Assembly: GCA_019112865.1 (NCBI GenBank)
Contig: DXIN01000036.1
Span: 1-64,000, forward strand
Direction of reading: 5' to 3'
Source of the DNA: Candidatus Helicobacter avicola
GTDB taxonomy: Bacteria; Campylobacterota; Campylobacteria; Campylobacterales; Helicobacteraceae
Length of the DNA: 64,000 nt
Shown: positions 2,946-11,285 of the stretch, piece by piece
Layout of the letters: the number at the start of each line of letters is the position of its first letter
How positions within the stretch are numbered: the first letter of the stretch is position 1
The notes under the pieces: model-generated
Seen by the model: the letters and a program-made list of their open reading frames with translations, nothing else
What the model was told of the DNA's origin: nothing
Databases searched by the model: none
Program-made: the position numbers and the translations under genes

Positions 2946-4397
2946 CTACTCCCACTCAATGGTTCCGGGTGGTTTAGAAGTGATGTCATAGACTACTCTA
3001 TTTATGCCCGCAACCTCGTTTATTATACGGTTGCTTACAGATTCTAAAAACTCGTGGGGCAGGTGTGAAAAAGTAGCTGTCATTCCGTCTAAGGCTTCCA
3101 CTGCCCTTACGCACACGGTATTATCATAAGTGCGGTTATCGCCCATTACGCCAACGCTTCGCACATTTAAAAGCACACAAAAGGCTTGCCAAACCTTATC
3201 GTATAAATTCCACTTATGCAGCTCCTCGATAAAGATAGAATCGGCTTCTCGTAGCAAGTCTAAGTCCTGCTTCGTAACCTCGCCCATTATGCGTATGGCA
3301 AGACCTGGTCCGGGAAATGGGTGTCTCATAAGCATAGATTCAGGCATACCAAGCTCCCGCCCTAAAGCCCTCACCTCGTCCTTAAAAAGCTCACGCAAAG
3401 GCTCGATAAGCTCAAATTTCATCCATTCAGGCAGCCCGCCGACATTGTGATGAGACTTTATCGTCTTGCTAGGTCCCTTCACACTTACCGATTCTATCAC
3501 ATCGGGATAAAGTGTGCCTTGTGCTAGGAATTTTATCTCGCCCTTAGCATTGTGCTTTTTTGCCTCTCTTTCAAAGACTTTGATGAAAGTTTCACCGATG
3601 ATTTTACGCTTAGTTTCAGGCTCTTTCACACCCTTTAAAAGCCCTAAAAACTCCTCACTCGCATCGACTGTTATCAAAGGCACTTTGAGATTTTCTTTAA
3701 ACATCTTTTCAACCGCTTCTCTTTCACCCTTGCGAAGTAAGCCAGTATCCACAAAGATAGGGATTACATTCTCGCCAATAGCTCGGTAAAGTAAAGTCGC
3801 CACGACACTAGAATCCACCCCGCCACTCACGGCACAAAGCACTTTAGCACCAGAGGGCTTGTCTTTTGAGCTTAAATCGTGGATTTCTTCAACTCGGCGT
3901 GGGTCTATGTCTAATAAACTCCCTTGACTCGTTTCGAAAAAGCCCGATTCTTCATCTAAAATACTTCGCCCTTGAGAATCTTCACTTTTAGAATTTGTCA
4001 TCTTTTGTGCCTGTGCAATTTCTTGGTTTTTCAATCCTGCCGTTTGCAAACCTCTCATGCAGTCTTTGAACACAAAATCAGCTATATCGCCTTGTTCGTC
4101 ATACATTGTATCTATAATCAGCTCTTTAAAATACCAATCTCCAAAGATTGCATCACATTTGGGGCAACCAAAAGATATATAGCTTGTTTGTGTGGTATTG
4201 CTATATCGCTCTTTTACTGTACCCAAAGTGATATGAAAATTATCACTTTGCCACTCTTTGATTTTACTTAGAATCTGCGGGTTAAAAACTTCTGCATGAT
4301 TTATTGTATTGCCTTGTGGAAGCACATAGCACACAAAATATTCAAACCCACATTTCCAACAATTATTTTTAACAAATCGTATAGTTATCTCTTGCAT
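2946..4397 (-). CDS. guaA: GMP synthase ATP-pyrophosphatase + dimerisation half, fused to an N-terminal Cys4 domain
   Basis: 483 residues. From about residue 165 this is the C-terminal two-thirds of GMP synthase, which aminates XMP to GMP with ATP and ammonia: P-loop SGGVDSS (191-197), then [34 protein letters not shown] and the canonical C-terminus PPGTIEWE. All ATP-PPase and dimerisation signatures are intact. The glutaminase domain is absent and is encoded separately at 6891-8228. In its place are about 130 residues with CWKC (C13, C16) and CPKC (C78, C81), probably a zinc-binding module, then a Ser/Glu-rich linker. Start chosen at 4397 (AAAGGA seven bases upstream); the ATG at 4424 has no ribosome site. 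The halves probably work as two subunits, as in archaeal GuaAA/GuaAB. Confidence 0.88.
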
Positions 4398-4425
4398 TCT
4401 TAATCCTTTAATAAAATTTTGCATT

Positions 4426-5028
4426 TCATCGCTTTGCCTCTTGTCTTATGATTTTCTTTTCTCTACTTTGTGCATTTTGCTGAATCAATGCATGTTCATT
4501 TTTTATATCAAGTGGCCAATCCATTCCTTGTTCTTGCACATTCCATTCAGGAAACTTACCATTTTCAAAATTTAAATAATCCTCAATACAACATTGCTCA
4601 ATAAATTTATATGAAATTGCAGCGTTTTTGACCTTTTTTAGCCCAAAAAGCCCCTTGACTTCTTTTTCAAAATTTTCTTGGTAAATCATATAAAATTCAA
4701 TCTTTTTACCCTCTAAAATTGTGTAGTAGAGAAAATACCATACACCAAAGCTTCTAATGCCAGGACGCCCTTTTACTCCACCATCTCGATAAATCTCTAA
4801 GGTGCTTTTTATACCTCCTTTTGCTTGACTACCGCCAATCTTTTTAATCTCGCCATCCACTACTATGAGATACACCCTTGCGACATTTTCGCTTAAGATT
4901 TTTTGTGGTAAAGTCTTGCCATTTTCATCTTTTAGTTCTTTAAGATAATTAAAATTTAGCTTTGTACTACCCTCTACAAACTCTACATCAGCAATTTTAA
5001 AGGCAGTTTTAACTTCACTTATTTTCAT
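4426..5028 (-). CDS. Probable GIY-YIG-like nuclease, likely restriction partner of the adjacent Dam-like methylase
   Basis: 200 residues from the ATG at 5026-5028 (AAGGAG five bases upstream, the same leader pattern as the methylase before it); a GTG six bases earlier is too close to the ribosome site. [16 protein letters not shown] mimics the two strands of the GIY-YIG core (xxY...xIGxS). A following Arg (LEIYRDGG), a long beta segment and a C-terminal Glu-rich helix leading to PEWN resemble the Glu...P-x-W-N ending of GIY-YIG restriction enzymes such as Hpy188I or Eco29kI. It begins three bases after the Dam-like gene. The fold call is by eye and needs a profile search; otherwise it is a hypothetical protein linked to an R-M system. 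Confidence 0.5.
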
Positions 5029-5030
5029 AT

Positions 5031-6095
5031 TCACTCCTTGATTATCAATAGCTCATGTGAGGTTTTTACATTGCTTTCACTCGCTCGCTCTATCCTATTT
5101 TTTCCTATCCTTGTTTCGCCCTGTCCCATAGTGTATTGCCAAGATGGCTCTAAAATTCTAAAGTCCTTATACGTCTCTCGCACGAACTCACAGTCATTAT
5201 AGCTTAGTATAAATTTGCCCTTGTGATTTTTTAAAAGTTCTGCTAAAAGCTCGTGATTAAAGCTATTGTGATGAATGGCAAAGTTTCGCATAGGATAGAT
5301 TCCCTTAAACATCTTAGAATCTCCCTCTAAAAAATAGGGTGGGTCAAGATAGAAAAAATCCTCTGGGTATTTTTCAAAAACAGCTTCAAAGCTTTCACAT
5401 TCTACGCTTAGATTTTTACTATTTGGGTGAAGTCCAAGCTCTTTTATCTTTTCTAAAGCCTTAAGATAACGCCTTTTATCCTCATAAATCTTACTCATCC
5501 AACCTAAAAAGCCCGGTCCATAGCTAAGATTAAAATTAAAATAATAATCCCTTGCTAAAGTTAAAGAATCTAGCTTGAGTAAAGGTTTATTTGCGGGATT
5601 TTTATGCCTTTCATTCCAAAAGGCTTTAAGCTCGTTTTTTATTTGCGTGTAGGTTTCTTGCGTAGGCTCTAGCTTGAGTAAAGCCTCATACAAACCCTTA
5701 GAATCTTTTAGTAAAACCTGCCAAAAATTTACTAAAATATCAAAAACATCAAAGGCTTTTACCTCTAAGTTTAGCTCTAAAGCAGAGGCTAACTCGACAC
5801 TGCCACCGCCTAAAAAGGGGCTAATTACTCGCTTTATATCGCTTGGAAAATGCTCAATAATAAGCCCAACAGCTAGGCTTTTGCCTCCACCATAACGCAA
5901 GGGAGACTTAGTATATCTTTTATAGCTAAGATTTTTGCCTTTAAGAGAATCTAAAAAATGGGTTTTTTTGGATTCTAGAGTATTATGGGCATAAGCAAAC
6001 AATAAATTTTGTGCAATGTATTGAGAATCTTGCCAAGTATAAATCGCCTCTGTGCTAGTTTTTAGTTTAGAATCTCGTGTTCTTTGTATATCCAT
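5031..6095 (-). CDS. Dam-like (D12/alpha class) N6-adenine DNA methyltransferase
   Basis: 354 residues. SAM-binding motif I is PFLGGGSVE (93-101), preceded by the K-x6-GGGKS motif (SPLRYGGGKS, 64-73) that marks Dam-type enzymes; the catalytic DPPY is at 251-254. Alpha-class order (motif I before DPPY) is clear. About 60 residues precede the catalytic domain, longer than Dam of E. coli, and contain an ESK-type linker. The start is the ATG at 6093-6095 with AAGGAG upstream; the GTG at 6101 is only two bases from that site. Flanked by tag (3 bp) and the GIY-YIG-like gene (3 bp). It could protect against that nuclease or act as the DpnM-like methylase of the nearby DpnII-type enzyme. Specificity cannot be read from sequence. 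Confidence 0.85.
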   Translation of the reverse strand: MDIQRTRDSKLKTSTEAIYTWQDSQYIAQNLLFAYAHNTLESKKTHFLDSLKGKNLSYKRYTKSPLRYGGGKSLAVGLIIEHFPSDIKRVISPFLGGGSVELASALELNLEVKAFDVFDILVNFWQVLLKDSKGLYEALLKLEPTQETYTQIKNELKAFWNERHKNPANKPLLKLDSLTLARDYYFNFNLSYGPGFLGWMSKIYEDKRRYLKALEKIKELGLHPNSKNLSVECESFEAVFEKYPEDFFYLDPPYFLEGDSKMFKGIYPMRNFAIHHNSFNHELLAELLKNHKGKFILSYNDCEFVRETYKDFRILEPSWQYTMGQGETRIGKNRIERASESNVKTSHELLIIKE

Positions 6096-6097
6096 TA

Positions 6098-6706
6098 TCA
6101 CTCCTTATTCTCACTATGAAACGCACAGCTTATTAAATGATCACACACAAGTCCCACAGATTGCATAAAGGCATAAATGCCCACGCTTCCTACAAAGCTA
6201 AAACCTCGTTTTTTTAAATCCTTTGCTACCCTGTCAGAAAGCTCTGTGCGTGTGGGAATCTCGCTAAGAGTAGCAAAGTGGTTAATAAGAGGCTTACCGC
6301 CTACAAAGCTCCAAATAAAGCTATCAAAACTTCCAAACTCATCTTGAATCTGCAAAAATCGCTTGGCATTGTTGATAGCGGATTCTATCTTAGCGCGGTT
6401 GCGGATAATCTTAGCATTTGCCATAAGAGATTCTATCTTTGCCTCATCATATTTTGCCACGATACTAGGCTCAAAATCATCAAAAGCCTCCCTAAAAGCC
6501 TCCCGTTTTTTTAATATCGTAATCCACGAAAGCCCCGCTTGCATACCCTCTAGTGTCAGCTGTTCAAAAAGTCGCTTTTCATCGTGTTGTGGCACTCCCC
6601 ACTCAAGGTCGTGATAGTTTTGATAAAGCCTTTGCGTGGCAAAATCTTTAGCATTATAACCTTGATAAATCCACTCACAACGACTTAATGGCACTATCTT
6701 TTGCAT
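6098..6706 (-). CDS. tag: DNA-3-methyladenine glycosylase I
   Basis: 202 residues and collinear with E. coli Tag. It excises 3-methyladenine from alkylated DNA. The zinc-snap ligands are present: C10, H32 in YHDLEWG, H190 and C194 in CDHLISC. The AGLSWITILKKREAFR block and KKRGFSFVGSVGIYAFMQ are hallmark segments. It is the first intact gene of the cassette that separates the two GuaA halves and runs directly into the Dam-like gene, so base repair and DNA modification genes share a transcript. Full length and apparently functional. Confidence 0.93.
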   Translation of the reverse strand: MQKIVPLSRCEWIYQGYNAKDFATQRLYQNYHDLEWGVPQHDEKRLFEQLTLEGMQAGLSWITILKKREAFREAFDDFEPSIVAKYDEAKIESLMANAKIIRNRAKIESAINNAKRFLQIQDEFGSFDSFIWSFVGGKPLINHFATLSEIPTRTELSDRVAKDLKKRGFSFVGSVGIYAFMQSVGLVCDHLISCAFHSENKE

Positions 6707-6916
6707 CTAACTTCTACCCTTAAAATGTGTTTTAGATTCTATCATTTTATCACAACTCTTTTTGGGTTTGAGGTAAGGTCTCTTAGCCCTGCTTTTAGTC
6801 CATACACTTTCTGAATCTACCCACTTAGATTCGCTAGATTCTGTAATGTCTTTGGTGATTTTAGATTCTATATTTTTAGAATCTGCTTTCTTACACATCA
6901 CTTTGCACTTTCTCAC
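6707..6916 (-). CDS. Small low-complexity reading frame between guaA-N and tag (doubtful)
   Basis: 69 residues rich in Lys, Ser, Glu and Asp ([18 protein letters not shown]), with no recognisable domain. It overlaps the end of guaA-N by 26 bp and stops one base before the tag start codon. Three copies of the AGATTCT/AGAATCT heptamer lie in it and account for the repeated ESK/DSE wording. It may be a translational coupler or simply an untranslated spacer with an accidental open frame. Recorded because it fills the only gap in the cassette. Confidence 0.25.
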
Positions 6917-8228
6917 AATCTAGCACTAATGTCAGCATATCCCCGCTAAGTTCGCCTCTTTTAAAACCAAGCTCATCAAAGGCTTTTAAGCCCTTTTTGT
7001 CGTGCTTATCCCACTGTGTTAGGAAGCTTTGTATATCGCTATGTGAGGCTTTTATAGTCCTTAAAAAAGCCTTTGTTAGATCGCTTTGTGATATGCTCCT
7101 ATCGATGAGGTAGCACTCAAAATGACAATGAGAATCCCTTAAATCATAAATCCCAAAAGCCATAATAAAATCTTTAGAATCCTTTTGCACTAAAAAATAT
7201 TTCGCCCTCTTAATACGTTCTTTTAACTCCTTAGCAATGCTTTCTAGCAGTCTTTCGCCCATAAAGTTATGAGCGGTAAAAAAGCTCTCTTTCCAAAGGG
7301 TAAAAATTTGCTCTTTTTCTTTTGTATCTTTGATTTCATAAAAGAGCTTTTGTTGCATTTTCATTCCTATCTCCTCTTGTGCATTAGATTCTAGCCCTGT
7401 GATTTTTCTAATCTTTTCTATCTCATAGCTAATAAAATTTTTCATATTCCAATCTGTGCTTGCCCCGCAAATGCCAACTGCAAAATTCCTTAGAATCTGC
7501 GCTCCGCACTCGCTATGCACGACTTCAGGGTGAAACTGCAAGGCATAAATTTGACGCTTAAAATCAGCTATAACGCAGTAATGTGTGTTGCCAGACTTTG
7601 CTAACTCCACAAAGCCAGACGGAATCTCCTCAACCTTATCAGCGTGAGACATCCAGACTATGCTATCTTGCTTCACTCCTTGGAATAAAGGCGTTGCCTC
7701 TTGGGCTAAAATCGGCGATTGTTCGCCCTCAGCCGATGTGTCATTTTCTTGGCATTCTAAGATTTTAGATGAGAAATCGTTGCTATCAAGCGAGGATTGA
7801 AGGAGCTTACTAGAGGTAAGTGACTGAAAATCTGAGCGTAGATTCAACGATTTATCGCTAAAAGCTGAATGCCCATCCAAGGAGCCATTTCCTATAATCT
7901 CAAGCCTTGCCTTGCCAAATTCTTGCTCCTTTGCCCTTATAACCTTGCCACCAAAATGATAAGCGATGTATTGCATACCGTAGCAAATGCCAAGCACAGG
8001 CACTCCAAGCTCAAAGATTTTAGAATCAGGCTTATAAGAATCCTTTTCATACACAGAAGCAGGACCGCCGCTTAAAATTATGCCCTTAGGATTTTTTGCC
8101 TTTATGCTTTCTAGCTTTTCAAAATAGGGCATTATTTCAGTATAAACGCCAAATTCTCTTAATCTTCTAGCGATGAGTTGGGTATATTGACTCCCAAAGT
8201 CTAGGACTAAAATTTGCACTTGGTTCAT
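6891..8228 (-). CDS. guaA: GMP synthase glutaminase (GATase class I) half, fused to a C-terminal GNAT-like domain
   Basis: 445 residues. Residues 1-278 are the N-terminal domain of GMP synthase, which releases ammonia from glutamine: [15 protein letters not shown], nucleophile C82 in GICYGMQY, and H233/E235 in QFHPEVVH. The domain carries an extra stretch of about 58 residues (roughly 117-175) rich in Ser, Asp and Leu. GuaA homology ends at [12 protein letters not shown]...IEKIRKITG, exactly at the linker to the ATP-PPase domain. After it, residues 290-445 look like a YjaB-type GNAT acetyltransferase ([13 protein letters not shown], then [10 protein letters not shown]). The missing synthase domain is encoded at 2946-4397. 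All glutaminase residues are intact, so a two-subunit enzyme is likely. Confidence 0.88.
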
Positions 8229-8400: not shown

Positions 8401-9525
8401 CTATCTGGCACCCTTCTCTCTATTACAAGCCCTACATAGCATTTGGCAGTTTTCTTTTTCCGTCTTACCTCCCTTACTCCAAGGCACTATATGATCGCCT
8501 TCCATTTCCTCTATCTCGCACTCTTTGCCACAGATTTTACAGATTCCCCCTTGTGCCTCATACACTTCCCTTTTTGTTTTCTCATCAAAGGCTCTTAGAT
8601 TCAAATGCTTTTCATTGCCACTTAGCACATATTCATAGATTCCGCTTTTTTTCTGCACCTCATCATCTTGCATAAGCAAAGCCACTTTTGCTTCTAGCTC
8701 TTTAGAATCTAAATCCTTATCTTTATGCGCATTATACAAAAGCCCCCATTCTAAGCCTTTCATCTCTTTTCTGTATTTAGGAAACTTCATCTCCACCCAC
8801 TCTATCACAGTGCTAAAATACGCCCAAAGCGAATCGGCATTCTTACACTCCTTAGCACATTTTGCCATATATTCACATATCGCTTTATCCTCTCTCTTGC
8901 CTACTCTCCACGCTATCACTGTTTCTAGGATTTCCTGCCTTATGCTCACACCCTTTAGATACCTATCGCCTCTTTGCACCGCCTTACAATTTCTCTTACT
9001 AAAAACTCTCTTAGCATCACTTAGCCACACACTCGCATACACAGCGTTTCTTAGCTCTTGCTCTGTGAGTTTTTCTCCTGCTATATTTATCACTCTAAAC
9101 CACTCTAGTTTCTCACTATCCTTACCCTCACAAATATAAATCATTAGCTCATAGTCCAAAAACTGCTTCTTTTTATCCTCTGGTAAGTTATGAAAATACT
9201 GCCCCTCTACACTAAAATTACCCTTAAAATACTCACATATACTGATACTTCTTTGCTGTCCATCTAGCACTTCATACTCAAACTCGGCATTAGATTCTGT
9301 ATTTTTGACCCAATACATCGTATTAAGCGGGAAATTATGCAAGATAGTGCGGATAACCTCATCTCTTTGCTTATCCTTATAGACAAACTCCCTTTGATAC
9401 TTTGGGCGAATATTTAGCCTTGCCTTTTTTGAATCTGCATAGGCTACTACTCCTCCCTCCTCGTCATTGTTTTCATAGCCCTCTACTAGCTCTTTTATAG
9501 GGATTTTTTGTAGTTGTATGTGCAT
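8401..9525 (-). CDS. DUF262 + HNH endonuclease-family protein
   Basis: 374 residues with two parts. The N-terminal half is a DUF262/ParB-like domain: PKYQREFVY (41-49) and the diagnostic DGQQR (88-92). The C-terminus (about 329-373) is an HNH nuclease with two CxxC-type zinc pairs (CKICG, CRAC) around GDHIVPWSKGG. DUF262-HNH proteins are DNA nucleases found in defence islands, including GmrSD-type modification-dependent restriction enzymes. It stands between the toxin-antitoxin pair and the guaA cluster, and a methyltransferase lies upstream, consistent with a defence role. Whether it cuts modified or foreign DNA cannot be told from the sequence. Confidence 0.82.
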   Translation of the reverse strand: MHIQLQKIPIKELVEGYENNDEEGGVVAYADSKKARLNIRPKYQREFVYKDKQRDEVIRTILHNFPLNTMYWVKNTESNAEFEYEVLDGQQRSISICEYFKGNFSVEGQYFHNLPEDKKKQFLDYELMIYICEGKDSEKLEWFRVINIAGEKLTEQELRNAVYASVWLSDAKRVFSKRNCKAVQRGDRYLKGVSIRQEILETVIAWRVGKREDKAICEYMAKCAKECKNADSLWAYFSTVIEWVEMKFPKYRKEMKGLEWGLLYNAHKDKDLDSKELEAKVALLMQDDEVQKKSGIYEYVLSGNEKHLNLRAFDEKTKREVYEAQGGICKICGKECEIEEMEGDHIVPWSKGGKTEKENCQMLCRACNREKGAR

Positions 9526-9534
9526 TGTTTTCCT

Positions 9535-9801
9535 TTATTTAAAAAGTTGGGCGTGGGTGCCTATCCTTGCTAGATATATTATGTCATCTTGGATTTTATA
9601 AATCACTAGCATATCACTACCTATGTGAAATTCTCTGTATTTAGCATATTTCCCTAAAAGTGCGTGGTCTCTTGCTTGTTTTGGTAAAGGCATATCACTG
9701 CCTAAGAGAGCAAGATATGTGATAAATTTGTTAAATTCACTCTCATTTAGTCGCACTTTATCAAAATCTTTAATAAAGCTTTTTTCACGCACAAGATTCA
9801 T
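9535..9801 (-). CDS. YafQ-type mRNA interferase toxin
   Basis: 88 residues, the usual length of the RelE/YafQ superfamily. LVREKSFIKDFDKVRL at the N-terminus, ARDHALLGKYAKYREFHIGSDMLVIYKI in the centre and ARIGTHAQLF at the end follow the YafQ pattern, including the catalytic-type His residues and the terminal Phe. YafQ cleaves mRNA on the ribosome and is neutralised by DinJ. The start overlaps the antitoxin stop by 4 bp (ATGA), so expression is coupled to the antitoxin. Confidence 0.88.
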   Translation of the reverse strand: MNLVREKSFIKDFDKVRLNESEFNKFITYLALLGSDMPLPKQARDHALLGKYAKYREFHIGSDMLVIYKIQDDIIYLARIGTHAQLFK

Positions 9802-10097
9802 TCTCTACCCCATTTCTTTTTAAGCTCTGCATATTCCTCTTTTAGCTGCTCTATGGTAAATTCCTCAAGATTTTCCCCTTTTTCGACATTTTCAATCGCT
9901 CTTTTCGTGGCTTCGTTTGGCACTTTTGCCCCTCTTATAGTAAAGGGCAGTTTGTTTTCGTGTATCACAGCCTTAGCAAAGACATTAAAAGCCGAGCTAA
10001 GATTTAGCCCCATTGTATGGATAATGCGTTCAAACTCAAGCTTATCTTGCTTATTCATTCTAAAAGTTACATTCATCATTTCATCGCTTTTTGACAT
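9798..10097 (-). CDS. DinJ/RelB-type antitoxin
   Basis: 99 residues. The N-terminal ribbon-helix-helix segment MMNVTFRMNKQDKLEFERI, then MGLNLSSAFNVFAKAVI and KLPFTI, match RelB/DinJ antitoxins, which dimerise to bind the operator and wrap the toxin through the acidic C-terminal tail (EKGENLEEFTIEQLKEEY). A clean AAGGAG ribosome site precedes the ATG. Upstream direct repeats probably form the operator. Adjacent to, and translationally coupled with, the YafQ-type toxin. Confidence 0.88.
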   Translation of the reverse strand: MSKSDEMMNVTFRMNKQDKLEFERIIHTMGLNLSSAFNVFAKAVIHENKLPFTIRGAKVPNEATKRAIENVEKGENLEEFTIEQLKEEYAELKKKWGRE

Positions 10098-10177: not shown

Positions 10178-11285
10178 CTACTCCTTTTGGGTTTTTGCTT
10201 TGCGGATTAAGATTCGAGCGTAAATTCGTTTGCCATTTACTACCCTGTCTTGTGGTTTTAAAATTCCCACCACCTCAAATTGTTTAGGATTATGTTTGCC
10301 CAAAAAGGTTATTGGCACACCCATTACGCCTTCATAATCCATAGGAATCTCTGCGACCTTATCGACATTTATCGCATTATAATTATCATACTTTGGGTAT
10401 TTATCTTTGTATTTTTCATAAGTATAGATAGTATCTAGTAGTTCATTGCGTCTTTTGTGTTCTAAATTCGTCATCCAGCAGATATTACCAAAGCTTCGCC
10501 ATTTCTGTCCATTTTCATCAATCCTAAAGCGAGTAGCCCTCTCCTCATAATCAGACGGCACTTTAAATTCTGCAAAGGATAAAACGCCACCCAACCAAAG
10601 TTTGTTAAGTGTAATGAGTTTTGCAATTTCTTTATATGGAATTGCATTTGTATTGCTAATTATCAAAAACTTCTTTTGAGATTCTATAAGCGTAGCGACA
10701 TATTCACGAAAGAGAGAAAAGGGCGGATTGGTTACGACTATATCGCTTTGCCTTAGTAGCTCTAGGCATTCTTGACTACGAAAGTCTCCCGCATTGCCTT
10801 GCCCCTCATCGGCAAAGAGCGTTTGAAGCTCTGCATCGGGTTTGAGGTCTTTGGTGTGATCTTTTAGTTTATGTTTATTTTGCTCAAAGGTTTCTAGTAT
10901 TTTTTTATCTTGCGTAGGCTTACGAGAGAGAGAGAGAGAGTAAGTCGGCAAGTTCGTCTATGCTTTTTATATCTTTGTCGCTGTGTTTGCGTATCCTTAT
11001 GCTATATGCCTTTGTGGGCGAATCTTCTTTGCTGGGATTTCGGTAATTTTGACTTTTGTAGCAAGTAGTGATAAGCTCTTTTAAGCACAAATGTTTAAAA
11101 TTTAAGAAAAAATATGTAAAAAAGTTAGATTCTAAAGGATCATCGCAGTTACATAGCACAACTTTATCTTTAAAATGCTCTTTGTAGTGCTTTAGCTCAT
11201 TTTCTATATCGCTTAACTGCGTATAAAACTCATCTTGTTTATTGCGTTTAGCTTGATGAAGATTTTTATTTTTGCTTTGTGTCAT
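10178..11285 (-). pseudogene. Phase-variable EcoRI-type adenine DNA methyltransferase, currently frameshifted (OFF)
   Basis: Two frames of one gene. The upstream part (ATG at 11283-11285, GGGGG ribosome site) reads KRNKQDEFYTQLSDIENELKHY and CNCDDPLESNFFTYF, typical of EcoRI-family methyltransferases, and ends in LLSLSLS at a stop. The downstream part resumes one base out of frame with SLSLSRKPTQ, then DIVVTNPPFSLFREY (catalytic NPPF), FGNICWMTNL and a normal C-terminus. The junction is a 17-base CT tract (10924-10940). Gain of one CT unit, or loss of two, would join the frames into a protein of about 365-370 residues. Both halves are otherwise free of stops, which fits slipped-strand phase variation better than decay. 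No restriction partner is adjacent, so it may act as an orphan epigenetic switch. Confidence 0.85.
10924..10940. repeat. Dinucleotide (GA/CT) slippage tract inside the methyltransferase gene
   Basis: Eight and a half GA units on the plus strand (CT on the coding strand). The tract sits exactly where the coding frame changes. Dinucleotide tracts of this length are prone to slipped-strand mispairing and are a standard contingency device in Helicobacter. Confidence 0.93.

Follow-up and report, generated by a model that had tools for sequence, protein, structure and literature searches.

The 64,000-nucleotide stretch of Candidatus Helicobacter avicola DNA analysed here (the window) contains an EcoRI-type adenine methyltransferase gene, designated M, which is split into two frames at a CT repeat. 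The question raised by this locus is whether M is a dead gene, a solitary switch of genome methylation, or one half of a restriction-modification system that can be turned off without harm. From the genomic comparisons described below, the last of these is the probable answer: the locus would encode a phase-variable two-gene restriction-modification system, in which the nuclease depends on the methyltransferase and the OFF state is safe.

M extends over positions 10178..11285 on the minus strand, with the ATG start at 11285 and the stop at 10178. The N half, running up to the tract and carrying the DEFYTQ and CNCDDP region (10920..11285, minus strand), matched the Pfam profile PF13651 (EcoRI_methylase) at profile positions 1-118 of 345 with E=1.6e-36. 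The C half, with the NPPF motif and two variable, recognition-like cassettes (10178..10951, minus strand), matched positions 86-324 with E=1.3e-82. Both matches are far above the cut-off and cover most of the model, and the assignment to this family by the first-pass annotation is therefore sound. Its reading of M as OFF also agrees with the two halves lying in different frames, with the junction at the CT tract and no other break in the gene. The tract itself, (CT)8.5, lies in a low-conservation loop of M at 10924..10940 on the minus strand (17 bases; the CT of the coding strand is GA on the plus strand). Coordinates and open reading frames confirmed that it sits at the sole frame break, and the arithmetic is consistent with restoration of the frame by gain of one unit or loss of two. 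A second inactivating change, named beforehand as evidence that would speak against the switch, was not seen in the window M. A fold search of M gave methyltransferase matches only, all weak, and no solved structure matched M significantly by sequence. A promoter and terminator scan gave scores near background.

The repeat is exceptional in this genome. Under a first-order model, dinucleotide tracts of at least 17 bases are expected about 4e-5 times per 64 kb and about 0.001 times per genome, and a chance origin of the CT tract was rejected because this expectation is far too low. Genome-wide repeat statistics were obtained as pattern counts, and in the 1.76-Mb assembly the only CT tract of 17-base length was that in M. 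It is also the only perfect dinucleotide tract of at least 10 bases in the window. Poly-G is abundant in the genome (93 overlapping nine-G windows on one strand and 92 on the other). In the window M, a slippage-prone repeat sets the reading frame.

Such repeats are not restricted to the window. A PF13651 search of 121 genomes of the family gave matches in 39, and wider searches gave more. In a survey of one genome per species, 14 Campylobacterota species including that of the window had a repeat in one common segment of M, at about nt 290-425, and M was OFF in ten of them and ON in four. The OFF genes contain (CT)8.5 in the window, (TC)10.5 in G053, (CT)5.5 in G058 (Helicobacter labetoulli), (CACAA)17.6 in G063, (CACGAAA)9.3 in G035, (TC)9 in G144, (CT)9.5 in G377, (GA)16 in G395, (CT)8 in G152 and (GA)8 in G420. 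The ON genes contain (AG)13.5 in G349, (G)10 in G249, (G)11 in G222 (Campylobacter sp. MIT 21-1684) and (CT)7 in G433. The in-frame share of 4/14 fits the one third expected for random tract length. The sister species G152 and G433, with 95% identity in the M body and 91% in the nuclease, differ by one CT unit between near-identical flanks and have M in opposite states. At a shared site, the GA unit is present 16 times in G395 and 4.5 times in G186. An invariant tract length in all relatives, which the first-pass annotation had regarded as grounds for refutation, was thus not found at the level of one genome per species; both length and unit vary, and ON and OFF genes coexist.

Five kinds of unit (CT, GA, poly-G, CACAA and CACGAAA) occur at this one site, which points to repeated acquisition of the M repeats rather than inheritance of a single one. 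In a tree of the conserved parts of M, the repeat-bearing genes fall in one Campylobacterota group, interspersed with repeat-free intact members. Conservation within M is lowest in the repeat-bearing segment, which is 32 to 129 residues long in the alignment and which, in a structure model of the intact M of G076, is a low-confidence region between ordered parts. The loop probably tolerates the residues encoded by the repeat when it is in frame. Short inverted repeats (e.g. GAGCGGCTTCGCCGCTC) were observed immediately before the CACAA, CACGAAA and GA tracts in L059, L060 and L095, and are possibly linked to the origin of the repeats.

The first-pass annotation had stated that no restriction gene is fused or adjacent to M, and this did not stand. 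Beyond two small genes lies the conserved partner of the family, an intact gene for a DUF262 (GmrSD_N)-HNH nuclease of 374 aa (designated R; 8401..9525, minus strand), with domains identified by Pfam and a full-length match to the PADLOC Type II restriction enzyme model REase_II (E=3e-132). In the genome collection, R is beside M in 40/46 loci, many in other phyla, and is downstream of M in all 40 apart from that of Riemerella, which has R upstream. Among all the loci measured, 21 have a 4-base overlap of M and R, which are also adjacent and overlapping on a Lactiplantibacillus pentosus plasmid; the distance between them is 652 bases in the window and 1059 bases in G377. The DGQQR and HNH residues are invariant in the R alignment. 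M was therefore rejected as an orphan methyltransferase, and since R is a conserved partner, neither the orphan reading nor the phasevarion resting on it is established. An 835-aa frame reported for G433, considered as an M-R fusion, has no corresponding open frame in the fetched DNA. In a fold search of R, the HNH and ParB/Srx-like domains that came up had weak E-values, and SspE and BrxU ranked low. As known from its sequence, R does not fit a GmrSD-type Type IV enzyme: its HNH domain is PF01844, not DUF1524, and its methyltransferase partner is conserved.

If R were autonomous like R.EcoRI, the loss of M should be lethal. In nine of the ten OFF genomes, R is a full-length single frame, the exception being G058. 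M has two strongly variable cassettes in combinations that differ between species, while R is evenly conserved, at a mean column identity of 53%, against 36% for M. Over 11 loci (55 pairs), the divergence of R was uncorrelated with that of the M cassettes after allowing for the M body; in G053 and G152, the R proteins are 93% identical and the cassettes only 22% and 12%. In addition, repeats were present in 14 of the 25 M genes beside a DUF262-HNH gene and in none of the seven beside an R.EcoRI homologue (L048-L051, L053, L085 and L086, all of the same class), with a Fisher p value of 0.01 that ignores shared ancestry. For the sole broken M with EcoRI cassettes, that of G028, the fetched flank contains no R.EcoRI homologue. 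From the intact R genes in OFF genomes, the independence of R from the cassettes and the confinement of the repeats to M genes paired with DUF262-HNH, we argue that R is conditional on M. A precedent is SspE, a well-studied DUF262-HNH effector that is licensed by the DNA mark of its partner system and is reported to be harmless without it (PMC9646914; PMC13251355), although growth arrest by SspE in the absence of its modification is cited in a review (PMC12707154).

The proposed sequence of events is as follows. Slipped-strand mispairing at the CT tract would shift the reading frame of M within a dispensable loop, between the N-terminal part and the NPPF catalytic part. Lineages would then alternate between full-length (ON) and truncated (OFF) M, and the assembly would have caught the OFF state. 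R, presumably lacking site specificity of its own, would be licensed by M or by its mark, as SspE is by phosphorothioate, so that cells losing M are not killed. ON cells would both methylate and restrict, and OFF cells would do neither and be open to foreign DNA. We infer switching in vivo, the loss of activity in the OFF state, the dependence of R on M and the biological role from the genomic comparisons.

Type II nucleases are usually autonomous, and PADLOC classes both M and R as Type II. An alternative is that the pair forms a conventional Type II system whose nuclease is autonomous, and that the OFF state is tolerated only because a truncated M leaves R untranslated through coupled translation; R silenced in this manner would make the OFF state safe with no dependence on M. 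The 4-base overlaps speak for such coupling, and R has a Type II model of its own in PADLOC. However, R does not diverge with the M cassettes. Coupling is at its weakest as an explanation for two loci with an OFF M and an intact R, those of the window and G377, because the two genes are so far apart there; in the window, a toxin-antitoxin pair even intervenes between them. We consider this alternative unlikely.

Another possibility is that the main role of M is epigenetic, as a switch acting on many genes, with restriction secondary or absent. According to a review (PMC3936762), ON/OFF methyltransferases of H. pylori and other bacteria alter how several genes are expressed, and H. labetoulli (G058) keeps the M repeat alongside a frameshifted nuclease gene. 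On the other hand, regulation alone needs no nuclease, yet R is conserved and intact nearly everywhere, and repeats are absent where the partner is R.EcoRI. A primarily regulatory role of M is improbable on these grounds, and a phasevarion based on an orphan enzyme is no more likely than ON/OFF switching of a restriction-modification system. It is very improbable that the frame break merely marks a simple pseudogene with a dead mutation or a repeat miscalled in assembly: the assembly is a draft of 42 contigs and M copies have decayed in some relatives (G061, G186 and G126), but a 17-base tract is short relative to sequencing reads, the window M has no other lesion, 13 further species have a like arrangement, in some cases on a long contig (2.07 Mb in G053), and the ON:OFF ratio among species is that expected of free slippage.

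Beyond the phase-variable system with a dependent nuclease, a broader proposal can be made, which we regard as tentative and slightly less probable than an even chance. These loci may represent a distinct kind of restriction-modification, in which M would give all the specificity through two exchangeable cassettes and would license an NTPase-nuclease free of specificity. The loss of M would be harmless, hence the recurrent unrelated repeats in the loop. Certain lineages would instead have a repeat near the C-terminus that switches the recognition end of M rather than its ON/OFF state.

With the EcoRI system the pair shares the methyltransferase family: M.EcoRI of an E. coli plasmid can be aligned with the window M over the full C half and is about 53% identical over residues 55-256. 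However, the partner in the window is DUF262-HNH and not R.EcoRI, no R.EcoRI homologue was found in the fetched window locus, both variable cassettes differ from those of M.EcoRI, and the window M has a slippage repeat. EcoRI proper was rejected on account of the partner and the cassettes, and because the recognition-like cassettes differ, the target of the window M is probably not GAATTC. With SspABCD-SspE and GmrSD/BrxU, R shares a DUF262 N domain with DGQQR and a C-terminal HNH-type nuclease, and its licensing is probably linked to modification. It differs in that its HNH is PF01844 instead of DUF1524 and its partner is a base methyltransferase; in sequence, R matched BrxU only marginally and SspE not at all. 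The H. pylori gene hpyAVIBM (PMC3411764) likewise has a dinucleotide repeat of strain-variable number within a Helicobacter Type II methyltransferase gene, but it encodes a cytosine-5 enzyme of another family, described as solitary, with AG x4-5. In the Type IIG enzymes JHP1272 (PMC3936762) and C. jejuni Cj0031 (PMC4889913), slippage toggles restriction and methylation jointly, and JHP1272 of H. pylori can in addition change its specificity at the C-terminal end (PMC3936762). Those enzymes are single fused polypeptides with poly-G, whereas the window has two genes of another family, and M in its relatives has several kinds of repeat.

A Campylobacter phasome survey describes nine phase-variable restriction-modification groups, and neither 'EcoRI' nor 'DUF262' occurs in its main text (PMC6321876). 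In the main texts of the open-licence literature, we found no description of phase variation of the M family or the M/R pair, nor of the recurrent M repeats or the difference between M genes with DUF262-HNH and with R.EcoRI partners. Phase variation of methyltransferases is well known in itself; what looks new is the recurrence of the repeats and the logic of a conditional nuclease. If the proposed system is correct, phase-variable restriction-modification gains an EcoRI-type, two-gene member. Natural experiments are provided by the OFF genomes that keep an intact nuclease and by the sister species separated by a single repeat unit; they bear on the dependence of DUF262-HNH nucleases on their own methyltransferases, and also on why some restriction-modification systems switch safely and the R.EcoRI type is apparently not switched.

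The two small genes between M and R encode a YafQ-like toxin (9535..9801, minus strand; PF15738, E=3.7e-25) and a RelB-like antitoxin (9798..10097, minus strand; PF04221, E=8.9e-13). This RelB/YafQ pair (9535-10097) separates M from R in the window, and such a pair lies just upstream of M in G063 (L134:6054-6604); a toxin-antitoxin pair is thus recurrent at the M/R locus, in differing positions. M was found in none of the five other genomes of the genus. In G086, of the same genus, the MFS gene and guaA are separated by genes for an aldo/keto reductase-like protein and one further protein in place of M-RelB/YafQ-R. Because the five other genomes of the genus are without M and this interval holds other genes, the M-RelB/YafQ-R stretch of the window looks like an accessory insertion.

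The neighboring region has further features. The GMP synthase of G086 (L156:6257-8932) is one 891-aa frame, in which a TagA-like 3-methyladenine DNA glycosylase (PF03352) is embedded between the amidotransferase and synthetase parts. Positions 2946-8228 of the window have the same order in separate frames, with the synthetase half preceded by genes for a D12 methyltransferase and an unknown protein. At 4426-6101, a D12-class methyltransferase overlaps by 4 bases with a 202-aa protein, which had no Pfam, PADLOC or NCBIfam match and whose position suggests an undescribed partner endonuclease. A second restriction-modification pair is located at 621-2277, where a DpnII-type restriction endonuclease (PF04556) is beside an N6/N4 methyltransferase (PF01555).

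Repeats were also observed near the 3' end of M in other lineages. In Riemerella columbina (L003:4674-5852 and downstream), a (GAGAA)12.6 tract is followed by three frames, each of which ends in the conserved terminal motif of the family (YRRILIR, YARITIR and YKRVLIR), against a background of 0.7% per frame. This suggests that the tract acts as a three-way switch of the C-terminal cassette, not as an ON/OFF switch. At L011:6560-7146, a (GACA)6.8 tract is followed by repeated extra C-terminal M cassettes in different frames.
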